Virus record (IMG/VR): IMGVR_UViG_3300042339_000788
Location: 29,499-93,498 of that record
Direction: 5' to 3' (one strand)
DNA: 64,000 bases
Origin: a virus
Made by a program: the position numbers and the translations under genes. Positions 42,029 through 62,742 of the stretch are shown here, one piece after another. Below the pieces are notes generated by a model. The model did not search any database. It was given only the letters and a program-made list of their open reading frames with translations, and had not been told where the DNA came from. Numbering within the stretch: position 1 is the stretch's first letter; the number at the start of each line of letters is the position of its first letter.

Positions 42029-42045
42029 AATTAATTTGTTTTCAT

Positions 42046-42077
42046 CTAATATACTTAAAAATATTCATAAAGTCAAA
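42046..42077 (-). promoter_or_regulatory. Bacteroidota-type promoter
   Basis: On the minus strand TTTG (42074-42077), 20 bases, TATATTAG (42046-42053). The leader to the ATG at 42028 is about 12 bases. Confidence 0.68.
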
Positions 42078-42079
42078 TG

Positions 42080-43189: not shown

Positions 43190-43203
43190 AATTTAATTAT
43201 TTT

Positions 43204-44310: not shown

Positions 44311-44314
44311 ATCT

Positions 44315-44323
44315 TATAAATAT
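44315..44323 (-). promoter_or_regulatory. start-proximal ATATTTATA element
   Basis: On the coding strand ATATTTATA ends four bases before the ATG of paralogue 2. It is identical to the elements before the three TExQ-tagged genes and supports a late-gene role for the motif. Confidence 0.4.
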
Positions 44324-44328
44324 AAATT

Positions 44329-45468: not shown

Positions 45469-45487
45469 ATTATATAATATACGGATT

Positions 45488-48400
45488 TTATCTTACAACT
45501 ACAACCCTACCTGATCTAGAAGATGAAAAAGTTATTGTAACCACCGATGTGCTTGTTGTAACAATTGATGATGGCCAGAACATATTATCTGAACTGTCAT
45601 AAACAAATACTGCCACATCTTTTGTTCCTAAACTATGTGTTACCGTTACTGATGATACACTACTAAATGTTGTTGAGTATGATGAGTTTGAATATGATTT
45701 AGCGGTACTTCCACCGATAGTTAATGCGGTGTGGAAATTTGGTATACCACCTCCACTAATTGAAAATATATACCCGGTATTTGTTCCATCATTTTTATAA
45801 ATGTAAAATGGCGTTGCATCTGTATTAGATCTACCAACTATTTCCCATTTGTTATTTCCCGCAGAGTCTTGGAATTGAATAATGTTACCACTAGTTGAAG
45901 CTAACTCTCTTAATTTTAAAACCCGACTATCGGTATCACTGGTAAATATCGCAGCCTTAAATGTAGGTACTGCCGATGTTGCAACTGATTGTCCTATGGA
46001 TACGGTAACCGAACCTGTTGTTGTGTCAACACCAACACCAGTTCCCGCATTAACCGCAGTTACTTTAGCCGCGGTATATGTTGTTGATATTGAACTACCA
46101 TTCCAAGTACCACTTGTAATTGTACCAACCGTTGCTAAATTCGATAATGACGTTAATGATGTATTTGAACTTGCTGTAATGTTTGTTGCATTTCCAGTTA
46201 ATGTACCAACAAAATTACCGGAGTTCATTGTTACCCCCGCACTGTCAACGGTCATTATTTTGGTCCAAGTACCTCCACCCGTTCCGGCTGAGTTGTACCA
46301 ATGAGTTAAACCACCAGTACTAAGACTATCAATTGCACCATGTGGAACATTATCACCATTTGCATCTGGAGCTCCCCACCAAACCGATGCGGTTGATGTT
46401 CCTCTAAAATATACTGTTCTACTCGTATCTGTTGCATTACCACCAAATGAATTACCAAATGTAACACTACCCGCACCAGATGAAAATTTAACAAGATTTG
46501 ATGTTGCAGTACCACTTCTTAAATAGGTAGAGGTTACTCCCGCAAATGTTGGTGTTGATGTTGTTGCAATACTTTGTGGTAAACTTAATGTAACACCACC
46601 AGTATTTGCACTAACCGTTACTTGATTAGTTGTTCCTGTTAAAGATGTCACACCACTATTTGTGACCGTAACGGCACCTGTTGTTGTGTTTACACTTATA
46701 CCTGTTCCAGCACTAACACTAGTTACTTTTGCATCTGTATATGTTGTTGAAATCGATGAACCATTCCAAACACCGCTATTAATTGTACCCACTGTGGTGA
46801 TTGCTAGTGCGTTTACTCTTGCTAATGTCTCATCCCCAGTATTGGTTCCTGAAGATGCACCACTATGTGTTCCGCTAAAATTAGCTGCGGTCATATTATA
46901 ACCAAATGTGGCAACGCCCGTTGTTTGATTTAACGTTAACACGTCAGCCGCAAGTGTTTCACTATAACATATATAATTGTTAGATGTTAAATTTTCTCTT
47001 AAACCTATGAACCACTTAGAACTACCCGCAGTTTGATAATATAAACCAACATAATTTGATGTTGCGGGTCTATTAAGATTTAACCCTCCTGTTGAATTAT
47101 TAATTATTAATGCGGTACTTGTTGTTGCACCTCTACTAGTAACAGTTGATAATGTTTCACTTGTTGCGAGTCCTTGTAATGAACCCGTAAATGCTGTTGA
47201 CGTAACCGAAGTTAAACCTGCAAGTGATGTTGACGTTCCACCCAATGTTGTTGATGTGGAACCAATTGTAATTGTTTTATTTGAACCTAATTGTGACCCA
47301 TCTATTTGTGATGAACCACTAATAACACCATCAGCGTTTAATTTTGATTTAACACCGGTGGTAAATGTTGCTGACGATGTGTCAATTGCAATATCGTCAG
47401 CGTTTACTGTTATACCATTACCGGCGCCCACATTAATCGTCCGAGTTGCTGAAATATCACCACCTCCCGTTAAACCACTTCCGGCAGTAATTGAAACCGT
47501 TGTGTGATCTATATGTTGATTAGCTACATAATTTGTTGTTGCGTTATGATTCACTTGAACGGAACCACTTATAACACCGTCACTATTTAATTTATTTTTA
47601 ATCGTTGTATTAATAGAACTAGTGAATGAGTTTAATGAACCTGTTGATGTTTCAACATTACCTATTCTTGTAACAGCATTGTTAAATTCTGTTTCTCTTA
47701 CTAATCTTTGTTCTGAACCTAACTGACCAGCAACCCAATAATCATTCGTTGAATCCCATAATAAAGATCCTGATATTTGACTTGGTGCTGTTGTATCTTT
47801 AACTCTTAAACCAGCAAATGTTGCACCACTACCATTCAGATTAATTAAGTTATTATCGACATCAAGTGTTGATGTGTTTACGTTTGTTGTTGTACCCTTA
47901 ACTAAAAAGTCGCCCCTAACAGTTAAGTTTGAACCTGTTAATTCTATTGCAGTTAATAACGAAGAGGTAAATGTGTTTAAACTACCTGTGGATGTCTCAA
48001 TTGCGGTTATAGTTGGGCTACTGATAACTTCAGTTACTTTTAATGTACCTGTAACTTCCGTATTTGAATTAATGGATACCTTAGTTCCATTATCAGTGAT
48101 ATTACTATCGTTTAAGTGTTCTATCCCTGTACCTTTAGGTATACGGTTTAATGTAAGATATGGCTCCCCACCAAGATTATTGTAGGTCTCTGGACCCATT
48201 AATAAAACAGAAGATGTTACTGAAGCTTGATCTTGGTGAACAAATAACCATTGGTTGTTAACGGAATCAAATAACATTGAGCCTGAAACTTGTGGTGATG
48301 AACCACTGTCAATAACAGCTAAACCACCAAATCTTACTGACGGATTAAGTGCGTTAACAGTTATGATGTTATCGGCAATGTTTAATACGGAAGAACTTAT

Positions 48401-50416
48401 ATTTTGTATTGATGAAGATCCTCCAACAATTAAATCTTGAGATATATAAAGTGATCCAGTAATTGTTTGATTACCTTGAAATATATTACTACCGGTTGTT
48501 GCATAACTTCCGGTTTTTGCTTCAATAGAATCAACCCTGTTTTTTGTGGTTAATGTGGTTGTTGCAACACTAGAACTCAAACTAACTATAGATGAGCTTA
48601 ATCCTAATGTGGTTGTTGCGACACTAGAACTTAAACTTGTTATTGTGCTCGTTAACCCCGATGTTGTTGTTGCGACACTAGAACTTAAATCATTAGTTGT
48701 TGTTGCAATTGAAGAACTAAATGTACTATAACCAGTTGTACTAGCTATATTAACTTGTACCGAACCAGATAAAACACCATCAGAATTTATTTTGTCTTTT
48801 ATTGTTGTATTAATAGAACTGGTAAATAAATTTAATGAACCGGTGGTTGTTTCAATTGAATCAACTCTATTTTTAATATTGAGAGTTGTTGTTGCAATTG
48901 AAGAACTTAAACTTCCGATTGAACTAGATAATGAGGAACTTAATTCTAACGTGGTTGTTGCAACACTAGAACTCAAACTAACTATAGATGAACTTAACCC
49001 TGATGTTGTTGTTGAAACCGATGAAGATAAATTTCCAATTGAACTAGATAATGAGGAACTTAATCCTAACGTGGTTGTTGCAACCGAGGAACTTAAATTT
49101 TCAATTGAACTAGATAATGAGGAACTTAATCCTGATGTTGTTGTTGCAACGCTAGAACTTAACGAACCAATACTAGAACCTAATCCACTTGTTGTGGTTG
49201 CAAGGCTAGAACTCAAGAAATCAACACTAGATGATAACCCGCTTGTTGTTGTTGCGACAGAGCCGGATAATGATCCAATACTTGTTGATATACTTGAGCT
49301 AAATGTTGAATATCCTGTTGTGCCCGTGATTAAAACTTGAACACTTCCCGATATAACCGTTTCTGTGTTAAGTTTATTTTTAATTGTTGTATCAATAGAA
49401 CTAGTAAATGTGTTATATGATGATGTGGAATTTTCAATTGCAAATAACCTACCATCGTTTGATGATGTATATGACTGAAAAGTTGTTTCATCTAATTTAC
49501 CTGTACCAATTGCTTGACCATTTAATGTAATAGAACCAGTTATATTAACTGAGCCGGTAACGTTATGAGATCCACTAATATCGACGGATCCAGTAACAAC
49601 CAATGATCCACTAGTTCTTTGAATATTTGTAAAGTTATTTGATCCTGTTGTGGCAAGTGCTGTTGTATCTACGTTAATCAGACCAATATTAGATTGACCA
49701 TGTAGAAAATCCGAATATACTGTTATAGAATTACCCATCCCAACATGATGGTCACACCAATAATAGAATGTTGCAGCTGTTGCATCGGTAACATCAACCT
49801 CAATATAAAAAGGGTCAGAATTGGTTGTTACTCCAGTAGTATATATTGTTCCTCCATTATGTTCCCCGTCGCTAGTTAACGAGAAAAGTAATGGGTGAGT
49901 AGCAATGTTATTATAATAAAATCTATATTTGAATCCCTTAATGAAGGATAATCTTGGGGATTTAACTCCGTTTATGTAATATTTCCCACCACCATCTGTT
50001 AGGGTCATATCAACAATGTTGTTACTACCTAAGTTTACTTTATTAAGTTTTAATGTCCCTGTAATTTCGGTATTTGAGTTAATTTTTAAGCCATTCGCCG
50101 AAGAAATGGATGCGGTGGCGCTTCCATCCGCAATCCGTGTTAAATTGAGACCTGTAACGCCGCTAGAGGGTATGTTTGTTAGATTACTACCATCTCCACC
50201 AAATGAACCTGTAAACGAACCCGTTGTATAGGATGAGGTAAACGCCCCAAAACTAGATGTTAGTGTGTAGTTTGCTGCGTGTGATGCTGAAACAGCATTT
50301 TGCGATGTTCCCGAAATTGTACCAAATAAGGTTCCTAATACCGTTAAATCGCCTGAAATTTCTCCAGAACCTGATACGGACAGGGAACCCGATATGTGAG
50401 GATCAAATATATTCAT
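45488..50416 (-). CDS. 1642-residue tail fibre/virion surface protein with cupredoxin-like domain
   Basis: A very long, Ser/Thr/Gly-rich protein. Parts in order: an ISGSLSVSGSGEISGDLTVL-type beta start; a cupredoxin-like domain at about 140-235 (H174, C221, H224, M227); a long coiled-coil stalk of Ser/Thr repeats at about 365-620; two repeated modules with GGLAVIDSG and AGLRVKDTTAPSQISGSLLW; beta-helical fibre segments (AGSGLTGGGDISATRTINVG); and a C-terminal domain ending SSSRSGRVVVVR. Such proteins form trimeric fibres that contact the host. Extra shadow frames on the other strand arise only from the repeats. Confidence 0.82.
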   Translation of the reverse strand: MNIFDPHISGSLSVSGSGEISGDLTVLGTLFGTISGTSQNAVSASHAANYTLTSSFGAFTSSYTTGSFTGSFGGDGSNLTNIPSSGVTGLNLTRIADGSATASISSANGLKINSNTEITGTLKLNKVNLGSNNIVDMTLTDGGGKYYINGVKSPRLSFIKGFKYRFYYNNIATHPLLFSLTSDGEHNGGTIYTTGVTTNSDPFYIEVDVTDATAATFYYWCDHHVGMGNSITVYSDFLHGQSNIGLINVDTTALATTGSNNFTNIQRTSGSLVVTGSVDISGSHNVTGSVNITGSITLNGQAIGTGKLDETTFQSYTSSNDGRLFAIENSTSSYNTFTSSIDTTIKNKLNTETVISGSVQVLITGTTGYSTFSSSISTSIGSLSGSVATTTSGLSSSVDFLSSSLATTTSGLGSSIGSLSSSVATTTSGLSSSLSSSIENLSSSVATTTLGLSSSLSSSIGNLSSSVSTTTSGLSSSIVSLSSSVATTTLELSSSLSSSIGSLSSSIATTTLNIKNRVDSIETTTGSLNLFTSSINTTIKDKINSDGVLSGSVQVNIASTTGYSTFSSSIATTTNDLSSSVATTTSGLTSTITSLSSSVATTTLGLSSSIVSLSSSVATTTLTTKNRVDSIEAKTGSYATTGSNIFQGNQTITGSLYISQDLIVGGSSSIQNISSSVLNIADNIITVNALNPSVRFGGLAVIDSGSSPQVSGSMLFDSVNNQWLFVHQDQASVTSSVLLMGPETYNNLGGEPYLTLNRIPKGTGIEHLNDSNITDNGTKVSINSNTEVTGTLKVTEVISSPTITAIETSTGSLNTFTSSLLTAIELTGSNLTVRGDFLVKGTTTNVNTSTLDVDNNLINLNGSGATFAGLRVKDTTAPSQISGSLLWDSTNDYWVAGQLGSEQRLVRETEFNNAVTRIGNVETSTGSLNSFTSSINTTIKNKLNSDGVISGSVQVNHNATTNYVANQHIDHTTVSITAGSGLTGGGDISATRTINVGAGNGITVNADDIAIDTSSATFTTGVKSKLNADGVISGSSQIDGSQLGSNKTITIGSTSTTLGGTSTSLAGLTSVTSTAFTGSLQGLATSETLSTVTSRGATTSTALIINNSTGGLNLNRPATSNYVGLYYQTAGSSKWFIGLRENLTSNNYICYSETLAADVLTLNQTTGVATFGYNMTAANFSGTHSGASSGTNTGDETLARVNALAITTVGTINSGVWNGSSISTTYTDAKVTSVSAGTGISVNTTTGAVTVTNSGVTSLTGTTNQVTVSANTGGVTLSLPQSIATTSTPTFAGVTSTYLRSGTATSNLVKFSSGAGSVTFGNSFGGNATDTSRTVYFRGTSTASVWWGAPDANGDNVPHGAIDSLSTGGLTHWYNSAGTGGGTWTKIMTVDSAGVTMNSGNFVGTLTGNATNITASSNTSLTSLSNLATVGTITSGTWNGSSISTTYTAAKVTAVNAGTGVGVDTTTGSVTVSIGQSVATSAVPTFKAAIFTSDTDSRVLKLRELASTSGNIIQFQDSAGNNKWEIVGRSNTDATPFYIYKNDGTNTGYIFSISGGGIPNFHTALTIGGSTAKSYSNSSYSTTFSSVSSVTVTHSLGTKDVAVFVYDSSDNMFWPSSIVTTSTSVVTITFSSSRSGRVVVVR
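48530..49300 (-). repeat. tandem Ser/Thr coiled-coil repeats within the fibre gene
   Basis: The coding strand repeats a unit of about 14-21 residues of the type LSSSVATTTSGLSSS with SSSIGNL. Leu/Ile spaced in heptads suits a parallel trimeric stalk. Unit copies differ in third codon positions, so they are old or selected as protein. Variation in copy number could change fibre length. Confidence 0.75.
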
Positions 50417-50492: not shown

Positions 50493-51056
50493 TTAAATTA
50501 AAGACCTAGGTTTGTCAATATTAATTCTATATTTCTGGCCATATGGGAACCCAACGTTCTTAACACCATCAATATTAAGGTAATCCACAACCCTTTGAAA
50601 CCCATTATTATAATATAATTCTTCGTATGATATTGTGAAATAATTTTTATTAATATAATTTTCTTTAATACCTTCTTTTATGTCATAAAGATAATCTAAC
50701 CCTACGGTTTGTTTTTTTTTCGACTTTTCTTCATAAACCCATGGCCTGTCCCAGTTATTTGTTGCAACAGCGTTTTCCCAGGAGAGTGATTGTTCATCTT
50801 CATTTTCTCTATAAAGAATAATGATTTTGTCTGATATATCTAATAAATCGGTATAATTTATTTCTTTTGAATAAATTTCCTTTATTAATAGATGTTCAGT
50901 TGTAAATTCCCAGTTTTGGGGTGGTATTTTGTTTTTATACCATTCTGACTTAATATTATACGGTTCATATAATACTGTGAAGTCCTTTCTTATGAAAAAC
51001 CAATTGGCCAAATTTGTAGATCCACTTCTAGGTTCACATAGTATTGTAATAATCAT
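50493..51056 (-). CDS. sulfotransferase-like protein with C-terminal LI
   Basis: A 187-residue protein. ILCEPRSGSTNLANWF is the 5'-phosphosulfate loop of PAPS-dependent sulfotransferases, and KIIILYRENEDEQSLSWENA is at the 3'-phosphate-binding position (Arg, Ser). It should transfer sulfate from PAPS. It is the last gene of the modification operon and ends PRSLI. Acceptor unknown; tyrosine or a sugar hydroxyl are both possible. Confidence 0.78.
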   Translation of the reverse strand: MIITILCEPRSGSTNLANWFFIRKDFTVLYEPYNIKSEWYKNKIPPQNWEFTTEHLLIKEIYSKEINYTDLLDISDKIIILYRENEDEQSLSWENAVATNNWDRPWVYEEKSKKKQTVGLDYLYDIKEGIKENYINKNYFTISYEELYYNNGFQRVVDYLNIDGVKNVGFPYGQKYRINIDKPRSLI

Positions 51057-51057
51057 T

Positions 51058-51465
51058 TTATATTAATTTATATTCATGTATATGGTTCTTCCCATAATTA
51101 CTAAACAACTCCTCATTTAATGAAATATCGGCCAACGCTTTAAATGTGAAACAATCAACCGTTCCGTTTTCAAAATTTGTATTAATATAATGATTTGTAC
51201 AACCATATACACACCCATTTGTAAGTTTAACTTTATACGGGTGGCCACGCATTGCTCTTATAAAATCTTGTAATTCCTCTGAAAAGGTATCAAACTCAGC
51301 TTTAGAAATTTCATATATGCCCGTTTTTCCTTGCCAAAATTCAAAAACGGTTTCACCCTTTTTAATATCTCTAATTGCAAAAACACCAACACCATGTACC
51401 CCACTTGGTTTAATTCTAGTCATTACACAATTTTTTAAAAAATCATATGGTGTTATATAATTCAC
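51058..51465 (-). CDS. SET-domain methyltransferase-like protein with C-terminal LI
   Basis: A 135-residue protein. MTRIKPSGVHGVGVFAIRDI and KKGETVFEF form the start of a SET domain; TNHYINTNFENGTVDCFTFK and ALADISLNEELFSNYG are the AdoMet-binding and catalytic Tyr motifs (NHxxxxN, then DYG-like NYG). It would methylate lysine side chains. No pre-SET zinc part. It ends EYKLI. It sits between two sulfotransferases. Confidence 0.8.
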   Translation of the reverse strand: MNYITPYDFLKNCVMTRIKPSGVHGVGVFAIRDIKKGETVFEFWQGKTGIYEISKAEFDTFSEELQDFIRAMRGHPYKVKLTNGCVYGCTNHYINTNFENGTVDCFTFKALADISLNEELFSNYGKNHIHEYKLI

Positions 51466-51470
51466 AATAA

Positions 51471-51968
51471 TTAAATTAGTTTTTTATTAAATTCACTTTT
51501 ATTCCCTTTTCGTAATCTTTTATCACTATTGACATCATATATGTCTTCATAATAAGTAATTGGAGTGTTAAGTTTATATGATAATTCATTCAAATCCTTA
51601 TTCCATTTTATTACATCATTATAACATAAATCAAATAACTTAGGTGGAACCTCTTCGTAATAATATTGATGATTTGAATTGTAATTTTTATTTTTTGAGA
51701 AGTAGGTTTGATATGCGTGGGATTCTACACATTGTAATATGTTTTTTCTAGATAATAATATTACCTCATCGAATTCTTTACTTAATTCAAAATTATTTGA
51801 GTGATGACATATGATCGTTTTAAGAACAATATTTTTTTCACCATTATATTTAAATCTACCGCTATTATCGAACGGTTCAAATATAGGAGTAAAGCCCTTT
51901 TCTTTTGCTAATTTATATAATAATGAAGTTGAGCCGGTTCTAGGTAATGCAACGATTAATATACTCAT
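51471..51968 (-). CDS. sulfotransferase-like protein with C-terminal LI
   Basis: A 165-residue protein. ILIVALPRTGSTSLLYKLA is the 5'-phosphosulfate loop, and FDEVILLSRKNILQCVESHA the 3'-phosphate motif (Arg, then Ser). It is shorter than the usual sulfotransferase. ATGA overlap with the upstream hydroxylase. It ends FNKKLI. Confidence 0.8.
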   Translation of the reverse strand: MSILIVALPRTGSTSLLYKLAKEKGFTPIFEPFDNSGRFKYNGEKNIVLKTIICHHSNNFELSKEFDEVILLSRKNILQCVESHAYQTYFSKNKNYNSNHQYYYEEVPPKLFDLCYNDVIKWNKDLNELSYKLNTPITYYEDIYDVNSDKRLRKGNKSEFNKKLI

Positions 51969-52552
51969 ATCAATGTTTTTTCAACTTTACGTTTTGGCCG
52001 GTCAGAATTGATGTTATCCATCCAAACATTTAACGCATATCGCGTACCATTTGTGACTGGTAGAACTCCATGATATGTTTTAAATCCATTAAAAGAAATC
52101 ATATCGCCAATTTTTAAATCATAAGTTGTAATGCCATCCATTTTATTAAAATGAATATCTGGAGTGTTACTATCACTTAATGCGAATTGACCACCTTCAA
52201 ACCCATTTGATAACACAATTACTGATGTTAACTCACTATCCGCATCTTTATGTAAATTTAGATACCTACCATTGTAATAAGATGTTAAACTAATGAGAAA
52301 ATTCTTTAGATTAAAATTATCAAAATCAAACCATAAATTAAAATTTCCAGTTTTATAATTATTCATTAATGAAGTAATTATTTGTTCCTTAAACCCCTCA
52401 TCATGTATGCGTCTACAATCCCATAATTCATTTGGGCGATATGAAAAAGGCTTACCGTGTTGAATACAAAAATTAATTATATCAGCACATTCGGTTTCTG
52501 TAAAAACATTATTATTTATTGAATAATTTATCATATATAAATAAATGAACAA
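51965..52552 (-). CDS. 2-oxoglutarate/Fe(II) oxygenase (prolyl-hydroxylase type) with C-terminal LI
   Basis: A 195-residue protein. The metal triad is readable in RYLNLHKDADSELTSVIVLS (H-x-D) and FKTYHGVLPVTNGTRYALNV (distal His, 2OG-binding Arg). It likely hydroxylates a peptide side chain. It ends VEKTLI. The gene follows the 48-residue peptide gene and the ATP-grasp/Hint gene. Confidence 0.8.
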   Translation of the reverse strand: MFIYLYMINYSINNNVFTETECADIINFCIQHGKPFSYRPNELWDCRRIHDEGFKEQIITSLMNNYKTGNFNLWFDFDNFNLKNFLISLTSYYNGRYLNLHKDADSELTSVIVLSNGFEGGQFALSDSNTPDIHFNKMDGITTYDLKIGDMISFNGFKTYHGVLPVTNGTRYALNVWMDNINSDRPKRKVEKTLI

Positions 52553-52569
52553 ACATTCATCTTTTTAAA

Positions 52570-52716
52570 TTATGATAAGTGTTTGTCTTTTATAGCAGTA
52601 ACAACAGCTTGGAATGCAGTTGATATTTTTGTCTTTATGTCAGCTGGTAATGAACTAATTATTGGTTTAATAACTGTTGCGGGTCTTTCTTGTCTAATTT
52701 TAGGGGTCTTTGCCAT
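52570..52716 (-). CDS. 48-residue peptide next to the Hint protein gene
   Basis: From ATG at 52716 to TAA at 52570. It begins MAKTPKIRQERPATVIKPI and ends in an amphipathic helix (KTKISTAFQAVVTAIKDKH). It lies between the Hint protein and the first downstream hydroxylase, 35 bases after the Hint stop. It could be a substrate, an adaptor or a regulator of the island. No family recognised. Confidence 0.55.
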   Translation of the reverse strand: MAKTPKIRQERPATVIKPIISSLPADIKTKISTAFQAVVTAIKDKHLS

Positions 52717-52751
52717 GATATATTTTTATTTTATATTTTTTATTAAAATTA

Positions 52752-54251
52752 TTAAGGAACAAATTTTTGTTGTCCGCCACCACCCCATGCACAAGTTGGG
52801 CAATAATATGAATAACAATAATTACCACAATAAGACCAACTACACCAACAACCGTTGTGCATTACACTAAAATCTCCATCCCCAATATCAACTAAGAATA
52901 AGTCAGATGGCGCAAAATCAAGTGTATAAATTGTTTTAGTTTCATATATCATTTCTAAACCACTAATTAGAACCGTTGTTAATTCATTAGTGTTTGAATC
53001 GGTTATTACCAATTTATCTCCAACATATAAACTATTTACCTTTTCAAATCTGGTTGCTGTTGAATCTTTTTCTTCAATATAATATACACACGCGGGGGTG
53101 TCTGACCAACTTCTACCATCTTCTAATGTTATTTGTATCATTACCGTTTCTACTTGTGTTGACACCATGTTCTGTAAACCAGACGATACCTGTGTTAATG
53201 TGTCGTTTGATTGTTGAAGTGTACTATCCCAACCATATGTATTAATTTCTGGTGTAAAAGATGCCGCTTCGTTTTCATTTGAATCTACAAAATTAATAGA
53301 TCGGACATAGTCACCTAATTGTATTGTGCTAACATTTGTTAATGTACCATCATAATTCAAAATGTTTGATTCGTCATCTGTGTGATAATCATTTCCCGAT
53401 CCTTTACCCACCTCTTTAGTGATATATTTGTATCTACTTTTTTGGTTTAATTTTTTTGTACCGGAAACGAATTCGGTAGCAGCAAACGAAACTGGGATTA
53501 CCGCAGATTGTGTGTACCCACCCATATTAATAATGTCCAAATTCGAACCGTATATAATATCAATTCCTCTTATAATTGAATACTTACCATCTACCAAGTT
53601 ATCTTCTGAAAATATAAATTCTTGAACTAAGAAATTATTTTCAGCAGAATTTATTGTGTCAACTAATTCGGTATTATTTGAAACCGCGTATAGCGCTGGA
53701 TATTTCATTTTATCATATTGTGGATAACGATATTTTATCAACACATTTGGATTTGTAGTATCACTATAGTCAACATCATCCAAAGTATTTACATTTAACG
53801 TATCCGAGATACAATGTGTTTTGGGAATATGTTGTGAATCTTTCATTAAATTAAAAAATTCAAACTTATCGGCGCAGTATGTTTCGTCTACTAATGCTGT
53901 GGTATCAAAAGCCTGTCTTAAAATAAATTTATTATTGGCGTCTTCAATAAATGGTACCGTTACTGAATTCATCGGTACTATATGGTCAGTATATGATATG
54001 TTATTTTCTGCACATTTTATTTGTAATATTTGTCTAAATCTATGTGTTTGATTTATAGGGCTATACGCGACGCCTTCTGTCCATATATAATGAAATTCAG
54101 TAATATTATTACTATTTAATACATCAAATAATGCATCATAATCTAATAAATCCGCTCCATCATTATATATTGTGGTGTTTGTGTTTATCTCCAAAAATTT
54201 AACATTATCATCTTTTTGTAAAAAATCACTACCAATTATTGTTGCTTTCAT
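52752..54251 (-). CDS. ATP-grasp-like/Hint protein with Cys-Tyr-Trp-rich C-terminal tail
   Basis: A 499-residue protein. Residues 1-265 look ATP-grasp-like, with VKFLEINTNT (E21, N23) at the start, where normal members carry it at the end, so possibly circularly permuted; ILRQAFDTTALVDETYCADK and NNFLVQEFIF follow. Residues about 295-466 form a Hint (intein-like) domain: DGTLTNVSTIQLGDYVRSIN, LEDGRSWSDTPACVYY, VGDKLVI, and DGDFSVMHN ending at N466. After HN comes a 33-residue tail with six Cys (468, 470, 475, 479, 484, 487), five Tyr and GGGG. The Hint N-terminal Cys is missing and the block-B His is replaced, so cleavage is uncertain. Confidence 0.65.
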   Translation of the reverse strand: MKATIIGSDFLQKDDNVKFLEINTNTTIYNDGADLLDYDALFDVLNSNNITEFHYIWTEGVAYSPINQTHRFRQILQIKCAENNISYTDHIVPMNSVTVPFIEDANNKFILRQAFDTTALVDETYCADKFEFFNLMKDSQHIPKTHCISDTLNVNTLDDVDYSDTTNPNVLIKYRYPQYDKMKYPALYAVSNNTELVDTINSAENNFLVQEFIFSEDNLVDGKYSIIRGIDIIYGSNLDIINMGGYTQSAVIPVSFAATEFVSGTKKLNQKSRYKYITKEVGKGSGNDYHTDDESNILNYDGTLTNVSTIQLGDYVRSINFVDSNENEAASFTPEINTYGWDSTLQQSNDTLTQVSSGLQNMVSTQVETVMIQITLEDGRSWSDTPACVYYIEEKDSTATRFEKVNSLYVGDKLVITDSNTNELTTVLISGLEMIYETKTIYTLDFAPSDLFLVDIGDGDFSVMHNGCWCSWSYCGNYCYSYYCPTCAWGGGGQQKFVP

Positions 54252-54284
54252 AAAATTTTATTTCTCATTTTCATTTATTGTGTC

Positions 54285-54304
54285 TTAGTTATAAATATAA
54301 CTAA
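54285..54304. repeat. 20-bp perfect palindrome upstream of the Hint gene
   Basis: TTAGTTATA-AA-TATAACTAA, arms of 9 bp, 34 bases upstream of the Hint ATG. It includes ATATTTATA on the coding strand. This is the only free gap of about 100 bases in the island, so an operator or promoter is plausible. Confidence 0.5.
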
Positions 54305-54348
54305 CCACCATTTTAAACTAAGTATATAGATATATAGATATATATCGT

Positions 54349-54651
54349 CTAAATTAAAGTGTTCTCACTTTTATCTTCAAGTGGTTTTAAATAGCCTGAA
54401 TCAATTTCGCCCCAAAATTTTTCTGGGCACGCATTATAATCTGTTGAAAAAACTTTCTTATTTAGGGGACATCCACATTTATTACAAAAAACACTCCATT
54501 TTAACCCTTTTATCATTTCTTTTCTATGGTCACAGCCTAAACAAAAATCCAGTCTTAGTTTAGCCAATTCTTCTTGTCTGATAGTTGGATTTAAGGAAAT
54601 CTTCCAAGCCTCAAATATTTTTTTATAATCAATCTTAGGGGTATTAATCAT
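54349..54651 (-). CDS. zinc-ribbon protein with C-terminal LI
   Basis: A 100-residue protein. FCLGCDHRKE, CNKCGCPLNKKVF and NACPEKFWG give five or six Cys in zinc-ribbon spacing. Small proteins with C-GCPL...CP-xxx-W motifs are found beside radical-SAM genes in phages. It ends ENTLI. It may deliver a metal or act as an adaptor; no enzyme motif is visible. Confidence 0.7.
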   Translation of the reverse strand: MINTPKIDYKKIFEAWKISLNPTIRQEELAKLRLDFCLGCDHRKEMIKGLKWSVFCNKCGCPLNKKVFSTDYNACPEKFWGEIDSGYLKPLEDKSENTLI

Positions 54652-55376
54652 ATTAATGTTTTATTATTTTTTTGGATATCGTAATAATCATAAATATCGT
54701 TATATCTCCGTATGAAATCGTCATTCAATTTTAAATTACAATCAAAATGTTGACTCCCATTTGATTTTTCCATTTTAAATGGTTTACCAGTTTTATTAGA
54801 CACCCATTCTTCCAATTCTTCAAAATTTCCAAATTCGAACCATTTTATTTTTTGATTATTGTTGTGCCAATGTGATATAGGTCTAAATAAAATTAATAAC
54901 ATATTTTTCATATAATCATTAAAATATTTTTCAATTTTGTTTTTTTTTGCAAATTCAAACATTAATAATTCTTGAGATTTTATGGAAATTAAATCTAAAT
55001 CTTTAAAAAATAATATGTCCTCTAAACTTAATTTTTTTAATATGTTAGTTAATTCCTTTGGGTATAACATATAAGTTAAATCAATTATATGTTTCCATAA
55101 TGAAATAAATCTTTCATGTTTATTTCGTCTAATTGAAATTATATCATATTCATCACCAAATTTCATAGTTAAATCAACTAGTCTTTCGTGACTATGAACA
55201 ATATTGTCGGCCAAATCTTCATTGGTTAGAGATAAATCTATTTTATCTTGGTAACTATCTATTAATAGTTGGTCAAAGTGTTTTATTATAAATCCACTTC
55301 GTATGCAGGACATATAAAAAGATGTTGATGCGCATCTTGGTAATGATATAAATAAAAATTTATTTTCCACTAACAT
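54648..55376 (-). CDS. sulfotransferase-like protein with C-terminal LI
   Basis: A 242-residue protein. FLFISLPRCASTSFYMSCIR is the 5'-phosphosulfate loop, and YDIISIRRNKHERFISLWKH the 3'-phosphate motif. It is the longest of the three sulfotransferases and the closest to the bacterial/viral Sulfotransfer_2-type layout. It ends NNKTLI and overlaps both neighbours (ATGA upstream of the zinc ribbon). Confidence 0.78.
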   Translation of the reverse strand: MLVENKFLFISLPRCASTSFYMSCIRSGFIIKHFDQLLIDSYQDKIDLSLTNEDLADNIVHSHERLVDLTMKFGDEYDIISIRRNKHERFISLWKHIIDLTYMLYPKELTNILKKLSLEDILFFKDLDLISIKSQELLMFEFAKKNKIEKYFNDYMKNMLLILFRPISHWHNNNQKIKWFEFGNFEELEEWVSNKTGKPFKMEKSNGSQHFDCNLKLNDDFIRRYNDIYDYYDIQKNNKTLI

Positions 55377-56014
55377 TATATTAACGATTTTTGATTTTTA
55401 ATATAATCAAACCCCACATTACCGGCCATAACAATTCTGTCCAGTGTTGAATTCGGTGCAGTATTTGGTGAGTGTGGAACATCGGCTTCCATTATGATTA
55501 AATCATCTTCTTCTGGTCTGATCCAATACTCCTTATCATCTTTACCTAAAAAATACAATACACCATCCTCATCATTCATTACGTCTGGCATTTGAATATA
55601 ATAAACATAGGTATAATGTGGGGTGAAGAGTTTATTTGATTTATTTATTTCAGTATGTATATGGTGTTTTTTATCTCCATAAAAATTCCCTTGTACCGGA
55701 TTTTTTGAACGAACAACATTAACCCACGCATCCGTATTAATTTTATTATAATTTATGTTTTTTTCATTATAGATTTCTTTACACTTATCAACACCAACCT
55801 GAACTATTTCGTCTAATTTTGTTTCTATTTTAAAATTACCAATAAAATTTAAATTTTCGTTCCATTCTTTTTTATAACCAAACCCATCTGTTTTAACATC
55901 AGGTAAAGATTCAATAACAGAATATGCTTCTTCTAAAAATAATGGTTTATCTTCTGTGCGATTTAGTTTTGTTTTCCATATATAAGTGGCTTCATCAAAA
56001 TATATTTTTTCCAT
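55376..56014 (-). CDS. 2OG/Fe(II) oxygenase-like protein (HxE variant) with C-terminal LI
   Basis: A 212-residue protein. HHIHTEINKSNKLFTPHYTY gives H-x-E in place of H-x-D; VPHSPNTAPNSTLDRIVMAG gives the distal His and the Arg. Glu as ligand is seen in some branches of this superfamily, but activity is less sure. It begins one base before the stop of its upstream neighbour and ends NQKSLI. Confidence 0.72.
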   Translation of the reverse strand: MEKIYFDEATYIWKTKLNRTEDKPLFLEEAYSVIESLPDVKTDGFGYKKEWNENLNFIGNFKIETKLDEIVQVGVDKCKEIYNEKNINYNKINTDAWVNVVRSKNPVQGNFYGDKKHHIHTEINKSNKLFTPHYTYVYYIQMPDVMNDEDGVLYFLGKDDKEYWIRPEEDDLIIMEADVPHSPNTAPNSTLDRIVMAGNVGFDYIKNQKSLI

Positions 56015-56015
56015 A

Positions 56016-56633
56016 TTATATTAAATTATTTTGGTTATTATTTTTGGCAACTAAATCAAAATTAATCACATATCTATCAGTTATAGTTGGGTATTCTCCG
56101 TAGTGATGAATATTACCATCAAATATAACGGCTCTTCCTTTTTTTGGTTGTATTTTATTTAGTGTTTCAAACCCATCAACATTAATACTTTTAAAATTGT
56201 GTTGAAGAAATTCCCCTGTATTTCCCATTTTATTATTTAAAAAAACGGTATTACCATCGGTGTTATTTATATAATAAACTATAGCAATATGATCCACACT
56301 CATATCAACATGAATTAAATTTTTAAAATCATAACTTTCACTTATGGGTGTTGTCCAGTTTATTTTACACCTATAATCTCTTTCAAATTTCATATTAAGT
56401 TTATTGAGTAAATTTAACTTTATGGAATTTATTATATTAATAATATCGGTATTATCAATGTCAACACCTTTTAGTACATTTGCGGGTAATTTTAATGATT
56501 CGGTTCCACCATAAAGCCCTGTAATATTATGTTGGTAATTCCATTTTAGGTTTGAAATTTTTACATAGTTTTCTAATTTAGTTTGGTCTGATTCTGGAAT
56601 TATATTATCAAATACTTGATACCCGTTTATCAT
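56016..56633 (-). CDS. 2OG/Fe(II) oxygenase with C-terminal LI
   Basis: A 205-residue protein. NLIHVDMSVDHIAIVYYINN (H-x-D) and VIFDGNIHHYGEYPTITDRY (distal His, Arg) complete the triad. It starts MINGYQVFDNIIPESDQTKL, the family's usual N-terminal layout. It ends QNNLI. Confidence 0.8.
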   Translation of the reverse strand: MINGYQVFDNIIPESDQTKLENYVKISNLKWNYQHNITGLYGGTESLKLPANVLKGVDIDNTDIINIINSIKLNLLNKLNMKFERDYRCKINWTTPISESYDFKNLIHVDMSVDHIAIVYYINNTDGNTVFLNNKMGNTGEFLQHNFKSINVDGFETLNKIQPKKGRAVIFDGNIHHYGEYPTITDRYVINFDLVAKNNNQNNLI

Positions 56634-57193
56634 ATTAAATTTTGTTTTTTTGAATCGGTTTTAATTAATCTTATCCAATTTACTAATGAATAACGCACCC
56701 CTTCAACTATAGGTACCACTCTATGAAGTAACCTTGAATTAAAAATATACAACGTGCCTATTTTATTCTTTATTGGCACAATCTCCCCTTTACTATTTTT
56801 AATCTCTAATATTCCACCGATATAGTTATCATTTAACTGAATTACTATTGATGCAAATCTATCTCTATATAATAAATCGGTACTATCAACATGCCAATCA
56901 AAGTATTCATTTTCTTTATATTCGGTGAATTGATAATCACCCAAACCAGTAACCTCCATTCCGTTAATATTGAACGACTCCCTTAATTTGTTTATTAATC
57001 TTTCATTTAAAAATCCCAAATCAGATACCCAAGCAATAGACGATTTCCTACGTATATTTTCAATATTTTCACGATTTTTATTATTATATACTTTAGCTGA
57101 TTCTAATGTTAATTCACTCTTACATTTCTTTAAAATGATGTCACATTCTTCAGGTGATAGAAAGTTTTCAAATATGTCTATATTATCAATCAT
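56630..57193 (-). CDS. 2OG/Fe(II) oxygenase (P4H/PiuC type) with C-terminal LI
   Basis: A 187-residue protein. EYFDWHVDSTDLL (H-x-D) and NSRLLHRVVPIVEGVRYSLV (distal His, Arg), with YIGGILEIKN between. This is the best match of the five to the prolyl-4-hydroxylase fold. It ends KKQNLI. ATGA-coupled on both sides. Confidence 0.83.
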   Translation of the reverse strand: MIDNIDIFENFLSPEECDIILKKCKSELTLESAKVYNNKNRENIENIRRKSSIAWVSDLGFLNERLINKLRESFNINGMEVTGLGDYQFTEYKENEYFDWHVDSTDLLYRDRFASIVIQLNDNYIGGILEIKNSKGEIVPIKNKIGTLYIFNSRLLHRVVPIVEGVRYSLVNWIRLIKTDSKKQNLI

Positions 57194-57678
57194 ATTAGTG
57201 TTTTTTCTTTTTTTCGTTTTTTATTATAAAACGAAATCAAACTAAAACGTTCGTTTTTTGTTATTTTAAGGACTCGATGCCTAACTTTATTATCGATAAA
57301 TAAACTTACATTTCTTATAGGTTTAATCTTAAGTAAGTTTTTATTTTCAATATATTCAAATTCTCCTCCGTCAAATGTGTTATTTATGTATGTTATAATT
57401 GTTAAATCACACGCATCATTATGATATTCATCATCAATATTTGTATTAACAGTTACTTTGTTAACCCATAAACCAAATAACTCATATTCATCGTTTATTA
57501 AGTCTTCACAATTTTTTTGGTATTCTAATAAATCTTTTTCAATATCTAATATTTTTCTAATGTAGTAGTTATGCTTGTTTTTAATACTATGAGTTTCCGT
57601 TTCTACGAAATTTATACACACCGAGTCCAAAAAAAATAGTTCTTCTTCAGATAAGAGATTTTCATATGTGCTAACCAT
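57190..57678 (-). CDS. 2OG/Fe(II) oxygenase with C-terminal LI
   Basis: A 162-residue protein. DDEYHNDACDLTIITYINNT (H-x-D) and DNKVRHRVLKITKNERFSLI (distal His, Arg). FDGGEFEY is the conserved turn of the jellyroll. It ends KEKTLI. It begins 9 bases after the DUF2061 gene, so it is probably in the same operon as the PAPS genes. Confidence 0.82.
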   Translation of the reverse strand: MVSTYENLLSEEELFFLDSVCINFVETETHSIKNKHNYYIRKILDIEKDLLEYQKNCEDLINDEYELFGLWVNKVTVNTNIDDEYHNDACDLTIITYINNTFDGGEFEYIENKNLLKIKPIRNVSLFIDNKVRHRVLKITKNERFSLISFYNKKRKKEKTLI

Positions 57679-57687
57679 AACATTTTA

Positions 57688-57897
57688 CTATTTTTTAAGC
57701 CCATACTTAATCCATCTATACCATACTCTTTCATGTATATAATATTGGATGGGTTTATAGATCAATTCCGCCACCCCAAATGCAGCACCAAATTTAATTG
57801 ATCCACTTATTAACCACATCAATAAGAATCCAATTAAGGTACTTACAATTCGATATGAGATGGTTTTAGCAATGTGTCTCTTCTTTTCTACTATCAT
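57688..57897 (-). CDS. DUF2061 membrane protein
   Basis: A 69-residue protein. HIAKTISYRIVSTLIGFLLM and KPIQYYIHERVWYRWIKYGL match DUF2061, which in bacteria occurs next to or fused with CysC/CysN sulfate-activation enzymes. Two membrane spans. Its overlap of one base with the nucleotidyltransferase supports a sulfate-activation role, maybe membrane attachment of the module. Confidence 0.82.
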   Translation of the reverse strand: MIVEKKRHIAKTISYRIVSTLIGFLLMWLISGSIKFGAAFGVAELIYKPIQYYIHERVWYRWIKYGLKK

Positions 57898-58277
57898 TAT
57901 CCCTTTGTTTGATCATATTTAATTTCACCGTCGGGTGTCATGTGGCCAGTTCTAATTGCTGTACCACTAATCGTTGCTATCTCAGTTGGTGGTTCGTGGT
58001 ATATTACATCATAACCAACCCCTCTACCATAATTAATGCTCTCAATATCAGGAATAATTGATATGTTAATTCTTTGTGAATTTTCTCTAAAGAAAGGTTC
58101 TTCACTTAGATCCATCATAACTTGCTGTGCGGTCTTAGGGTTATTTTCATCCGTTGGCACGTTCCTAATTGCAACCCACACATCTTTTCCTTTATCTAAT
58201 TGTTGGTTAATAAGCCATTCGTGGCCCTTATGCCAATTTTGCCAACGCCCCACATACATTGCGTATTTTTTACTCAT
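57897..58277 (-). CDS. nucleotidyltransferase, ATP-sulfurylase-like
   Basis: A 126-residue HIGH-type nucleotidyltransferase. YVGRWQNWHKGHEWLINQQL holds the H-x-G-H motif. VWVAIRNVPTDENNPKTAQQ is in the middle, and ISGTAIRTGHM near the end is the ISGTxIR motif. It belongs to the compact adenylyltransferases found with APS kinase. I infer that it makes APS from ATP and sulfate, but NMN- or other nucleotide transfer cannot be ruled out. Confidence 0.7.
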   Translation of the reverse strand: MSKKYAMYVGRWQNWHKGHEWLINQQLDKGKDVWVAIRNVPTDENNPKTAQQVMMDLSEEPFFRENSQRINISIIPDIESINYGRGVGYDVIYHEPPTEIATISGTAIRTGHMTPDGEIKYDQTKG

Positions 58278-58708
58278 AATGATAATTTTTTTAACAGTTC
58301 ATAATATGAATCTGTTTCGTTTTTTATTGTTGTGTCTATATCTATAAAATTTTCTAATGGTGGTTCATATTCCTCAACATGGAATTGATTCCTACCTCTA
58401 TCTTCTGTAGTGTGAACATAAATCTCAACAACCGATGTGCTGAACTTAAATGCCTCTCTTTGATCTCTATACGGTGAAACTAGGGATACAATAACATTGT
58501 GTCCTTTACTATGCATAAATTGCGCAATGTATTGTGCTCTCTGGATGTTTAGTCTTCTTCCTGTAATGGAATAGTCTTTATTCTTAAAGATGTCTCTTAG
58601 ATCATCCCCATCGATATGAGTGACCTCATCTTTTGGGAAGTATTCCACCAAGTATTTTGCAAGGGTTGTTTTACCTGCTCCGGGTTGTCCTGTTAACCAG
58701 TATATCAT
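58274..58708 (-). CDS. cysC: adenylylsulfate (APS) kinase
   Basis: A 144-residue protein. YWLTGQPGAGKTTLAKYLV is the P-loop. THIDGDDLRDIFKNKDYSIT, GRRLNIQRAQYIAQF, NVIVSLVSPYRDQREAFKFS and ENFIDIDTT complete the CysC set (the substrate Arg and Asn in NIQRA). The product, PAPS, is the donor for the three sulfotransferases of the island. ATGA overlap with the nucleotidyltransferase. A promoter-like site just upstream suggests that it heads the operon. Confidence 0.93.
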   Translation of the reverse strand: MIYWLTGQPGAGKTTLAKYLVEYFPKDEVTHIDGDDLRDIFKNKDYSITGRRLNIQRAQYIAQFMHSKGHNVIVSLVSPYRDQREAFKFSTSVVEIYVHTTEDRGRNQFHVEEYEPPLENFIDIDTTIKNETDSYYELLKKLSL

Positions 58709-58746: not shown

Positions 58747-59970
58747 TTAATCAATAAAAATATCACCTAACCATGGGCATATTTCCTTATAATCGGTTTT
58801 ATTAATTTCGTCAAATCTCCTTAAGGTTTCCGGTAGTGAAATAGTAACATATTTCTTCTTATCTAATAGGTGGCTATAAACTTCCTCATCCTCAGTGTTT
58901 CTTAAATATTTAACAAATTCAATCAACGTATATCTACAAAGTGATGTTAAATTGTTTATGTTGTTTTCATAAAGTTCTATTAACGCTTGTTTCATGCCAC
59001 CCTTACAAATTCCAGGTGCAAAATAAAAAGGTTGAGTCACAGTATGAAACCTAATGTGATCTGAATGGAGGTAATTTTCTTCAACAAACTTTATGAAATC
59101 AAAAGAATGGTACATGTTTATTGTTGAAATAGTATAATCAATAGAAACTTTGAAATTGTCGTTGGTTTCTTTAAACTTAATTAGCGTTTCCAGATTTTTA
59201 AAGAATTTTTCAGAATTAAATCCTGGTCTTTGATATTCACCAATTTTACCATACCCATCACATGAACAAGAAATATCTACAGTTTTAAAACGTTTAAGTT
59301 TATCAAGTATGTCAATACCTTTGTATGTTAGTGTGGATAAGTTTGTATTGATTAATATATAAACCTTTTTAGCCTGTTCATCACTGAATCTATCTAACAA
59401 GGTAAATGTTGTTGGTGTTATAAATGGTTCACCACCAGCTAAATAAACTTTACGAATAGAATCAATATTTTCTTCTGAAAACTTATCAAGAGCGTCGTCA
59501 CCCGCTGTTAAGTACTTGGTATTGATGGTATCATATTCTGGTTGATTTTGAACATAACCCCAATACTCAAACCAGGTTGATGATGACCCATGAAAACACA
59601 TTCTACATTTAAAGTTACAATGATTAGAAAGTCTCAAATCTGTGTAAACAATTTTGTTTACACTATAGTCTTCATTATATAGTGATGGGTCCGCTATTTC
59701 TTCTCTAAACTCAATGTTACTATGCTCTTTGTGTCTATTTTTATAAACAAAACATTCCGCACATTCAGATGGCGCAATATTAGATAACATCTCTTTTCTA
59801 ATACGTTTATATGGTTCACTATTAATTGCTTCATCAACAGAATTGAAATCCTTGAAATGAATATTCTCTTTAAATGGAGAAGCCACACAACAAGGTGATA
59901 GTGTGCCAGATGCCCCAACATAAATTGAACCAAAGGGTAAATAACAAAATTTCTCTGAGATGGTATTCAT
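58747..59970 (-). CDS. twitch-type radical-SAM protein
   Basis: A 407-residue protein. The N-terminal part has the twitch-domain Cys (C9, CC at 27-28, C70, C73), then the radical-SAM NHCNFKCRMCFHGSS (C118, C122, C125), VYLAGGEPFITPTTFTLL, and a C-terminal CPW. Enzymes of this layout (N-terminal auxiliary cluster domain) are frequent in marine phages and bacteria; their substrates are unknown but probably peptides or proteins. One-base overlap with the next radical-SAM gene. It ends GDIFID, without the LI ending. Confidence 0.85.
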   Translation of the reverse strand: MNTISEKFCYLPFGSIYVGASGTLSPCCVASPFKENIHFKDFNSVDEAINSEPYKRIRKEMLSNIAPSECAECFVYKNRHKEHSNIEFREEIADPSLYNEDYSVNKIVYTDLRLSNHCNFKCRMCFHGSSSTWFEYWGYVQNQPEYDTINTKYLTAGDDALDKFSEENIDSIRKVYLAGGEPFITPTTFTLLDRFSDEQAKKVYILINTNLSTLTYKGIDILDKLKRFKTVDISCSCDGYGKIGEYQRPGFNSEKFFKNLETLIKFKETNDNFKVSIDYTISTINMYHSFDFIKFVEENYLHSDHIRFHTVTQPFYFAPGICKGGMKQALIELYENNINNLTSLCRYTLIEFVKYLRNTEDEEVYSHLLDKKKYVTISLPETLRRFDEINKTDYKEICPWLGDIFID

Positions 59971-61268
59971 TACAATAATTTTACATTATCATCTTTTGGT
60001 AATTCAATGATAACATTTGGATCGATAAAATCTCTAAACTCAGTAAACACAGAAAAGAAATCATCACCTCTGAATGTGTCAACCATGTCTGTCATTTTTA
60101 AAAACTTTTGGAACATTTCTTCGTCTCTTTCTTGATTTAACAAGTCTATTACAAATTCAAATTGTCCTATATCTCGTTGTGCTTCACTGTTATCCGCTAT
60201 GTTATTTTTTATCCAAATTATAAGGTTATTATACAATATTCTAAGAACCTCTTTATGTCTTTCAGGTAGCATTTTTATCTGAAGGTGTTCTGGATGTGTC
60301 AATAAATTAATATGAATTTTACCAGGAAGTAAGTAGCCATTTTCTATCCAATTTTTATATAAATCAATTATGGTATAGCTATTCATTATGTTAATTGTTG
60401 GTACAATTCCAAAAAAAGTATCTGGTAGTTCTCTCAAAAGTGTTTTTCTATTCTCAACTATTTCAGACCATTTTGATCCACTTCTAAGATATTGGCCTCT
60501 CTCTTCAAAACCATCTATACTTGCTGTTATCTCAACGGCTTTGAACTTCTTCCACATCTCAATTATATTATAATCTTTATAATATAATTTTGTGAAATTG
60601 GTTGTAACCCACACTGTTATATTTTTAGCATAGTCATTGTCTATGCAGTATTGTAATATTTGATAATGTTTATCTTGTGTTAATGGTTCGCCACCAGCAA
60701 AAAATAATGACTTAACATGCTTTAATTGGCTTAAAATAAAATTAAACTCATCATCATCAACCGACATACTATATGGTTGACCATAATCTTTAAAATTATT
60801 GAAGCCTAACGCTTTATACTCTTTATATAATGATGATGAAAAACCGGGATTACAAATCCTACATTTTAAATTACATTTATTATCAAAACGTAGATCTAAG
60901 TGTTTAAATTGTATTATTTTTAATGAAAAATCTTCATTTGTGTTTTCCACAATGTTTTCTATTTCATCTTCAAACTGTTTGTTTAAATTAAATCTGTAAC
61001 TATCAACTTGGCTCTTCCCTTTTGAAACCTCTTCTCTATACCAGCAAATTTGACACTCGTTTATCTTCTCACCATTCCACAATCTTTTTCTAACATCCTT
61101 TGCAACATCAGAATTATACATTTCATTTAATGGAACGCCTTGCTTAAGTTCTCCGAAAACTCGTTCTTGTTTATATAAACAACAAGGTACAACATTTCCA
61201 AATGTACTTAAATGTGAAGCAATCCATGGAGCAACACAAAAGGTTTCTTCGTTATAATTTTTTTCCAT
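59970..61268 (-). CDS. twitch-type radical-SAM protein
   Basis: A 432-residue protein. Twitch Cys C11, CC at 29-30, C72, C75; the core is LDLRFDNKCNLKCRICNPGF (C132, C136, C139), and LFFAGGEPLTQDKH is the AdoMet GGE. It resembles the gene at 58747 in plan but differs in sequence, so different substrates are likely. It ends NVKLL, close to the LI ending. Confidence 0.85.
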   Translation of the reverse strand: MEKNYNEETFCVAPWIASHLSTFGNVVPCCLYKQERVFGELKQGVPLNEMYNSDVAKDVRKRLWNGEKINECQICWYREEVSKGKSQVDSYRFNLNKQFEDEIENIVENTNEDFSLKIIQFKHLDLRFDNKCNLKCRICNPGFSSSLYKEYKALGFNNFKDYGQPYSMSVDDDEFNFILSQLKHVKSLFFAGGEPLTQDKHYQILQYCIDNDYAKNITVWVTTNFTKLYYKDYNIIEMWKKFKAVEITASIDGFEERGQYLRSGSKWSEIVENRKTLLRELPDTFFGIVPTINIMNSYTIIDLYKNWIENGYLLPGKIHINLLTHPEHLQIKMLPERHKEVLRILYNNLIIWIKNNIADNSEAQRDIGQFEFVIDLLNQERDEEMFQKFLKMTDMVDTFRGDDFFSVFTEFRDFIDPNVIIELPKDDNVKLL

Positions 61269-62741: not shown

Positions 62742-62742
62742 C

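Follow-up and report, generated by a model that had tools for sequence, protein, structure and literature searches.

At positions 52752 to 54251 of the window (the whole stretch of 64,000 nucleotides analysed here) lies, on the minus strand, a real open reading frame of 499 codons with about 80 full-length homologues, which the first-pass annotation, made from the sequence alone, had drawn without a strand. Its precursor-like product is built of three parts. Residues 1-285 (53397 to 54251) form a circularly permuted ATP-grasp ligase-like domain, recognised from an AlphaFold2 model, Foldseek matches and invariant residues. Residues 286-466 (52854 to 53396) form a degenerate Hint domain, recognised from the model, from Foldseek and from residue states over the relatives. 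Residues 467-499 (52755 to 52853), with the sequence GCWCSWSYCGNYCYSYYCPTCAWGGGGQQKFVP, are the proposed core peptide and carry a conserved Cys pattern. Single-protein and profile searches of Pfam, PHROGs and PDB sequences gave no significant match for the 499-aa protein.

The gene is embedded in an island of enzyme genes of the same strand. Its upstream neighbour (54349 to 54651) encodes a small zinc-ribbon-like protein (CxxC..CxxCGCPL..CP, ending ENTLI) present in 46 of 53 loci. Beyond it come a sulfotransferase-like protein with an LPRCASTSF loop (54648 to 55376, ending NKTLI; 48 of 53 loci, a weak Pfam match in one homologue only) and a run of 2OG-Fe(II) oxygenases or oxygenase-like proteins, at 55376 to 56014 (ending QKSLI; PF13640 E 1.4e-3, below cut-off; 48 of 53 loci), 56016 to 56633 (QNNLI; PF13640 E 7.6e-5, below cut-off), 56630 to 57193 (KQNLI; PF13640 E 3e-13) and 57190 to 57678 (EKTLI; PF03171 E 1.2e-4, just under cut-off). 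On the other side of the gene stand a further 2OG-Fe(II) oxygenase (51965 to 52552, EKTLI; PF13640 E 2e-8), a sulfotransferase-like protein with an LPRTGSTSL loop (51471 to 51968, NKKLI), whose aligned homologue matches Sulfotransfer_3 at E 1.8e-4, a SET-domain protein (51058 to 51465, EYKLI; PF00856 E 1.3e-7) and another sulfotransferase-like protein, proposed from its EPRSGSTNL loop motif only (50493 to 51056, PRSLI). Farther upstream, an adenylylsulfate kinase (APS kinase, for PAPS supply; 58274 to 58708; PF01583 E 3.8e-17) lies beside a nucleotidyltransferase-like protein (57897 to 58277; PHROG 10255, second half), possibly its APS-forming partner. They are followed by radical SAM/SPASM enzymes at 58747 to 59970 (PF04055, PF13186) and 59970 to 61268 (ending NVKLL), a radical SAM-like protein at 61269 to 62741 (PF04055 E 3.1e-5, below cut-off) and a radical SAM enzyme at 62743 to 63906 (PF04055 E 1.3e-11; TTKLI). 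In all, the island of the window holds five 2OG-oxygenase-like, three sulfotransferase-like and four radical-SAM-type proteins, the sulfotransferase assignments, made from sequence, being weak.

The core of 2OG, sulfotransferase-like, zinc-ribbon and HINT proteins is present in 46-48 of the 53 loci, and in the smallest islands (L157, L203) a single tagged 2OG enzyme accompanies the HINT gene, the zinc-ribbon protein being optional. Large fibre-like genes adjoin the island (42080 to 50416). Three of them, paralogous and on the minus strand (42080 to 45468), encode proteins with the short conserved Cys/Trp end ...SSGHCGWR(x). Elsewhere in the window are glycosyltransferase-type genes, and IscA/SufA- and IscU/NifU-like genes for iron-sulfur assembly (16409 to 16738 and 16931 to 17341) fit the many radical-SAM genes.

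A tryptophan halogenase (PF04820 E ~1e-86) is encoded one to three genes upstream in 51 of 65 testable loci, for example just upstream of the island core at L011:1555-2799 and L164:3438-4667, and is absent from the window's clade. A distant island of halogenase, zinc-ribbon protein (ending TKSIL) and permuted ATP-grasp, interrupted by the contig end, occurs on a phage-like contig of a 'Euryarchaeota' MAG (L093). A small zinc-ribbon protein of similar type, and a halogenase sharing 39% identity with that of L093, are encoded in cyanophage S-RIM4 (L110, 2845-3030 and 5992-7155); in cyanophages the two occur close to tail genes, and the HINT protein is missing.

The roughly 80 full-length relatives come from uncultured T4-like jumbo phages. 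A first scan gave 53 loci confirmed by tblastn, profile scans gave further ones, and 81 distinct full-length proteins were gathered for the comparison of tail and His-Asn. No cultured relative was found, since tblastn of named phage records (INPHARED, 50,697) returned no relative of the ATP-grasp/Hint/tail protein. From GTDB came a single partial and distant homologue, lying on a contig of a MAG and resembling misbinned phage DNA in its setting, and a scan for the pattern CGNYWCD outside the family returned zinc ribbons and chance frames only, together with one more member having two Hint domains, L265. The gene is present in single copy per genome (14 related records), and the genomes that carry it contain no paralogous tails. 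The window itself belongs to a 93-kb record of an uncultured virus, and contigs with relatives reach 289 kb; one of these contigs (G001, the contig of L014) encodes, as read from its ORFs, tail-sheath-like and ribonucleotide-reductase-like proteins in T4 style. Several secreted-looking proteins of this contig have signal peptides that end in ...FGQ, a hint of a host among the Bacteroidota. Neither the family nor the C-terminal tag described below appears in the papers searched, a coverage lying mostly outside subscription journals.

The N-terminal half of the protein was poorly modelled in a first full-length AlphaFold2 run and well with a more diverse alignment (62 diverse sequences; residues 1-294, pLDDT 90.8, pTM 0.85). 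Its best PDB match by Foldseek is glutathionylspermidine synthetase (2io7, E 1.2e-5), with 2ioa, the GspS-like 3n6x and homoglutathione synthetase 3kak (E 6e-3) among the others; enzymes of the 2io7, 3n6x and 3kak type are circularly permuted ATP-grasp proteins. The first-pass annotation had called this part ATP-grasp-like and pointed to an ExN motif at its N-terminus. It was right, and model, Foldseek and motif spacing together explain the position of the motif: the terminal Asp...Glu-x-Asn segment sits at the N-terminus of the ATP-grasp fold. Because the fold is permuted and D9, E21 and N23 are spaced like D318-E330-N332 in E. coli Gss, the ExN motif represents the end of the domain, displaced from its usual place. 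G7, D9, E21, N23, T24, R112, D116, K173, Q210, E211, R228 and K275 are invariant in the 62 sequences, so that all the predicted catalytic residues of a permuted ATP-grasp are conserved. Sequence statistics are insufficient by themselves: Pfam RimK reaches E 0.06 over the motif alone, restoring the un-permuted order brought no gain in Pfam or PDB scores, and a PDB search with the permuted profile was without match. The assignment is settled by the predicted structure. Compared with glutathionylspermidine synthetase and eukaryotic-type glutathione synthetase, the phage domain has the same Foldseek fold, permutation and D-x11-E-x-N spacing, but it is shorter, fused to Hint and of undetectable sequence homology beyond the motif.

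For residues ~286-466 the first AlphaFold2 model was already good (pLDDT mostly 75-90). Foldseek relates this part to the Hedgehog autoprocessing domain (E 8e-8, TM (target) 0.77) and, at E ~1e-7, to inteins, Hedgehog Hint and bacterial intein-like (BIL) domains, with 2lwy, 6y75 and 6tmm among the matches. The Hint fold that had been proposed from sequence and left to structure prediction is thus predicted, and its details hold: the region ends in DGDFSVMHN at residue 466, TPAC occupies the block-B position, and the N-terminal nucleophile is missing, His290 being aligned at the Cys1 site. Residue states were followed in 70 relatives chosen by a regular expression demanding Cys and HN, which fixes those two by construction. 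In this set, position 1 of the domain (hereafter Hint1) is His in 70/70, the His of block B (TxxH) is replaced by C, A, S or T, and the block-F His position (D450) is Asp in 70/70. The residue after Asn is S in 38, G in 13, T in 9, A in 7 and P in 3; a few members thus have Asn-Pro junctions (3/70; 4/68). The C-terminal His465-Asn466 is kept in 81/81 full-length relatives of the unselected set.

Two intein classes were considered and rejected: class 1, as Cys or Ser is missing from position 1 and the +1 residue is S or T in just 47/70, and class 3, as the block-F stretch PSDLFLVD has no Cys and residue 450 is Asp in 70/70. With these residues gone from Hint1, neither its N-terminal chemistry nor canonical splicing is expected to work, Asn cyclisation alone being chemically feasible, and the earlier view that splicing is unlikely stands. 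Release of the tail by Asn cyclisation is likely but unproven; the losses (Cys1, the TxxH His, the block-F His) could also render Hint1 inert. BIL domains are known to cleave with a C-terminal His-Asn and variable flanks (PMC7765530). Of the A-type BIL traits, the C-terminal His-Asn with variable +1 residue is present in Hint1, whereas the N-terminal Cys is absent there and present in a second Hint domain (Hint2) of L157, L158, L164, L203 and L265. Like BIL domains, including the Tetrahymena BUBL ones that flank ubiquitin-like domains, our protein combines the Hint fold and C-terminal His-Asn with a non-intein context, and its long members likewise hold a small unit between two Hint domains, as do BUBL loci. 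It differs in the absence from Hint1 of the N-terminal Cys and of further catalytic residues, and in the enclosed unit, which is a Cys-rich peptide in place of a ubiquitin-like domain.

The tail had been correctly described as 33 residues with six Cys, five Tyr, three Trp and GGGG. Such a tail is not a product of chance: of 609 ORFs, drawn from the window and from two jumbo phages related to it, only the three orthologues of the 499-aa protein carry six Cys in their last 33 residues. Across relatives the tail is neither absent nor random, HN plus a Cys-rich stretch being conserved in 81/81, with the consensus HN-x-C-W-C-P-W-x-Y-C-G-x-[YW]-C-x-S-x-Y-C-P-x-C-x-G-G...K-[LIVA]. Six Cys are present in 71/81 full-length relatives; the 3/81 that scored seven are two-Hint members, in which Cys1 of Hint2 adds to the six, and 7/81 have eight or nine, the extra two (positions 471 and 480) having been gained together on one branch. 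Mean pairwise identity is 50% at the non-Cys tail positions against 64-65% in the body. The protein thus shows one RiPP trait, a genetically encoded precursor whose leader is conserved and whose core lies at the C-terminus (Cys fixed, remaining tail variable), and tailoring-type enzymes encoded beside the precursor, another RiPP trait, are present as well. The pLDDT of the tail is low and uninformative on crosslinks.

In the gene cluster that holds the halogenase, the tail carries a nearly invariant Trp. Tail and halogenase appear to vary together: Pro471 becomes Ser or Gly in the halogenase-less clade of the window and Thr in L033, and L053 has Ser at 472, with L086 and L166 as exceptions. 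This covariation is suggestive, the independent events on the tree being too few to prove the tail as substrate.

In five relatives (L157, L158, L164, L203, L265) the second Hint, with intact Cys1, brackets the tail in the layout ...HN-[tail]-GG-CFVAGTKV...VHN-KK. These proteins have 625-665 aa in L157/L205, L158/L202, L164/L201 and L203, and L265 has an identical junction. Hint2 begins with CF[VI][AS]GT after the tail, mostly at GG, has a block B of TxxHPF type and ends VHN-KK; it passes the Pfam cut-offs in all three members scanned. The KK that follows echoes the terminal K of short members, so that Hint2 could be an insertion before the terminal Lys. At the point equivalent to the Hint2 start, after GGFK, L053 carries an S74-like segment (SDISFKENVNLIG...YEGIIAQEL), a weak match (PF13884 E 0.02, 15.6 bits against a cut-off of 22) for which the PDB gave none. 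Hint Cys1 and S74 modules cut themselves at their own N-terminus. Two different self-processing modules at one point, with Hint1 on the opposite side, are the best sequence evidence that a unit of ~30 residues may be meant for release.

Island enzymes of unrelated folds share a C-terminal K-x-[LI]-[LI] or close variants (in the window 50493 to 57678 and 59970 to 63906, minus strand). The ending [LIVF][LIVM] is found in 598/607 island enzymes, and a looser one, [LIVF][LIVMF], in ~9% of 504 other ORFs from two genomes; in the window, 11/15 genes of the 50-60 kb bin carry the tag, against 1/59 elsewhere (Fisher p 4e-9). A DNA-level motif at gene ends was rejected as its cause. Because codons and stops vary, all three stops being used, the tag is a peptide signal. 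In the lineage of L157, L158, L164, L200 and L203 it changes to ...LF on 2OG enzymes, zinc-ribbon proteins and halogenases alike; the ...F ending is found in 10/15 enzymes of that lineage against 2/607 elsewhere, though the sequences are related and a p-value on these counts overstates their independence. Such a switch in three unrelated families is notable, and the K-x-[LI]-[LI] ending, with its shift to ...LF within a single lineage, has the look of a docking tag. The HINT protein is the sole protein to accompany it in all these islands, and a shared receptor would be the simplest reading. On G001 a few genes outside the island are also tagged (27078-28361, 41999-43791; KDQTLI, NKKII, NSSLI); by their N-termini these may be glycosyltransferases, and they could be further clients.

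What computation establishes here, namely fold, conservation, synteny, tag and domain architectures, leads us to infer a cleavage, a peptide as substrate and a docking partner. On balance, and by no great measure, we consider it probable that the 499-aa protein is a precursor from which these phages make a modified peptide of RiPP-like kind, with an ATP-grasp platform, release by Hint and tailoring enzymes gathered by the tag. Residues 1-285 would be a permuted ATP-grasp amide ligase, probably doubling as folded leader or platform. The enzymes would dock by the K-x-[LI]-[LI] tag on a common partner, possibly the 499-aa protein and perhaps its residues 1-285, and their targets within the tail would be Trp, Tyr, Pro, Asn or Cys. 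These modifiers would be the 2OG oxygenases, the sulfotransferase-like proteins fed by APS kinase, the radical-SAM and SET enzymes and, in most relatives, the halogenase. The Hint domain, its N-terminal chemistry lost and its His-Asn kept, would free the tail by Asn cyclisation, and in some relatives Hint2 or the S74-like segment would trim the other peptide end. The ATP-grasp, for its part, may attach an amine or an amino acid, or may couple the tail to something else. The first-pass annotation had already taken the tail for a RiPP-like substrate. The idea has gained the two-Hint members, the S74-like fusion, the halogenase of most relatives and the shared enzyme tag; bracketing and tag favour a released, modified peptide, while cleavage, modification and release stay at the level of what we infer.

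The main alternative, which we hold to be rather unlikely and yet serious, sees in the tail a small disulfide- or metal-stabilised domain kept on a structural protein, e.g. a tail-fibre-associated one, the Hint being a frozen relic and the enzymes acting on fibres, surface glycans or another target. The neighbourhood lends itself to this reading, with its adjoining fibre-like genes and the glycosyltransferase-type genes elsewhere in the window, as does the S74-like segment of L053, of a type typical of trimeric fibres. Even Cys counts (6 or 8), with gains in pairs, suit such a mini-domain, and the Asn-Pro junctions of a few members and the active-site losses of Hint1 point the same way; but His-Asn has stayed invariant despite the loss of the other Hint catalytic residues, and so have the catalytic residues of the ATP-grasp. 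Moreover, Hint2 with its intact Cys1 is placed exactly at the tail end, and the tag keeps to the island that holds the HINT gene, the smallest islands keeping one tagged 2OG enzyme, all of which argues against a purely structural role.

It is improbable that the protein serves as scaffold for a small molecule, the ATP-grasp extending the peptide end by an amino acid or amine, this added group or a free amino acid being tailored, and a halogenated, sulfated metabolite being released. Such a scheme resembles peptide-scaffold pathways, e.g. that of ammosamide, and the metabolite predicted for cyanophage S-SSM6a, whose cluster of halogenase and 2OG oxygenases has been predicted to make a halogenated amino-acid metabolite or to decorate polysaccharide (PMC7824862). 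An ATP-grasp with complete active site fused to the chain would suit it, as would the conserved K-[LIVA]-type end of the tails, but a mere carrier has no need of conserved Cys and many aromatics within the tail, and the Hint precedes the whole tail, not its last residue. It is very improbable that Hint2 is an ordinary mini-intein-like insertion, the tag a local genomic habit without function and the tail not specially linked to the enzymes: Hint2 does look inserted before the last residues, but its canonical splicing is impossible because the +1 residue is Lys, and the tag has no DNA motif behind it and shifts in step across families.

Read as the precursor of a RiPP-like peptide, the protein can be compared with proteusins, which offer a precedent for peptide halogenation on a large folded leader (SrpI, with a flavin-dependent peptide brominase; PMC10858898). 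Both systems have a ribosomal precursor, a conserved leader, a variable C-terminal Cys/aromatic core and clustered tailoring enzymes with a flavin halogenase among them. In the phage system, by contrast, an ATP-grasp ligase of ~285 aa together with a Hint of self-cleaving type makes up the leader, the enzymes are commonly tagged, the whole is phage-encoded and the modification is putative; no separate protease or RRE was seen there. The S-SSM6a cluster is similar in its phage-borne flavin halogenase, its 2OG oxygenases and its predicted secondary-metabolite role, whereas no Hint precursor with core peptide and no tag are described for it.

Carried to its full extent, the proposal would be that marine jumbo phages of T4-like type produce a Cys-rich peptide that excises itself and bears several modifications (hydroxylation, sulfation and, in most relatives, halogenation). 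Its precursor would be ligase, self-cleaving protease and substrate, its enzymes would be assembled by the tag, and the two-Hint lineage would leave a C-terminal thioester able to cyclise the peptide or link other molecules. In all its parts together this is tentative and rather unlikely. Marine phages commonly encode sulfotransferases, 2OG oxygenases, halogenases and radical-SAM enzymes that have no known target. The role of phage sulfotransferases in particular has been called unclear (PMC10580990). The tail described here offers these enzymes a candidate substrate, concrete and conserved. If the reading is true, a short docking tag would let unrelated tailoring enzymes share one client, with a possible use in peptide engineering, and these viruses would encode a RiPP-like pathway with a self-cleaving ligase precursor, leading to a modified peptide of an undescribed kind.
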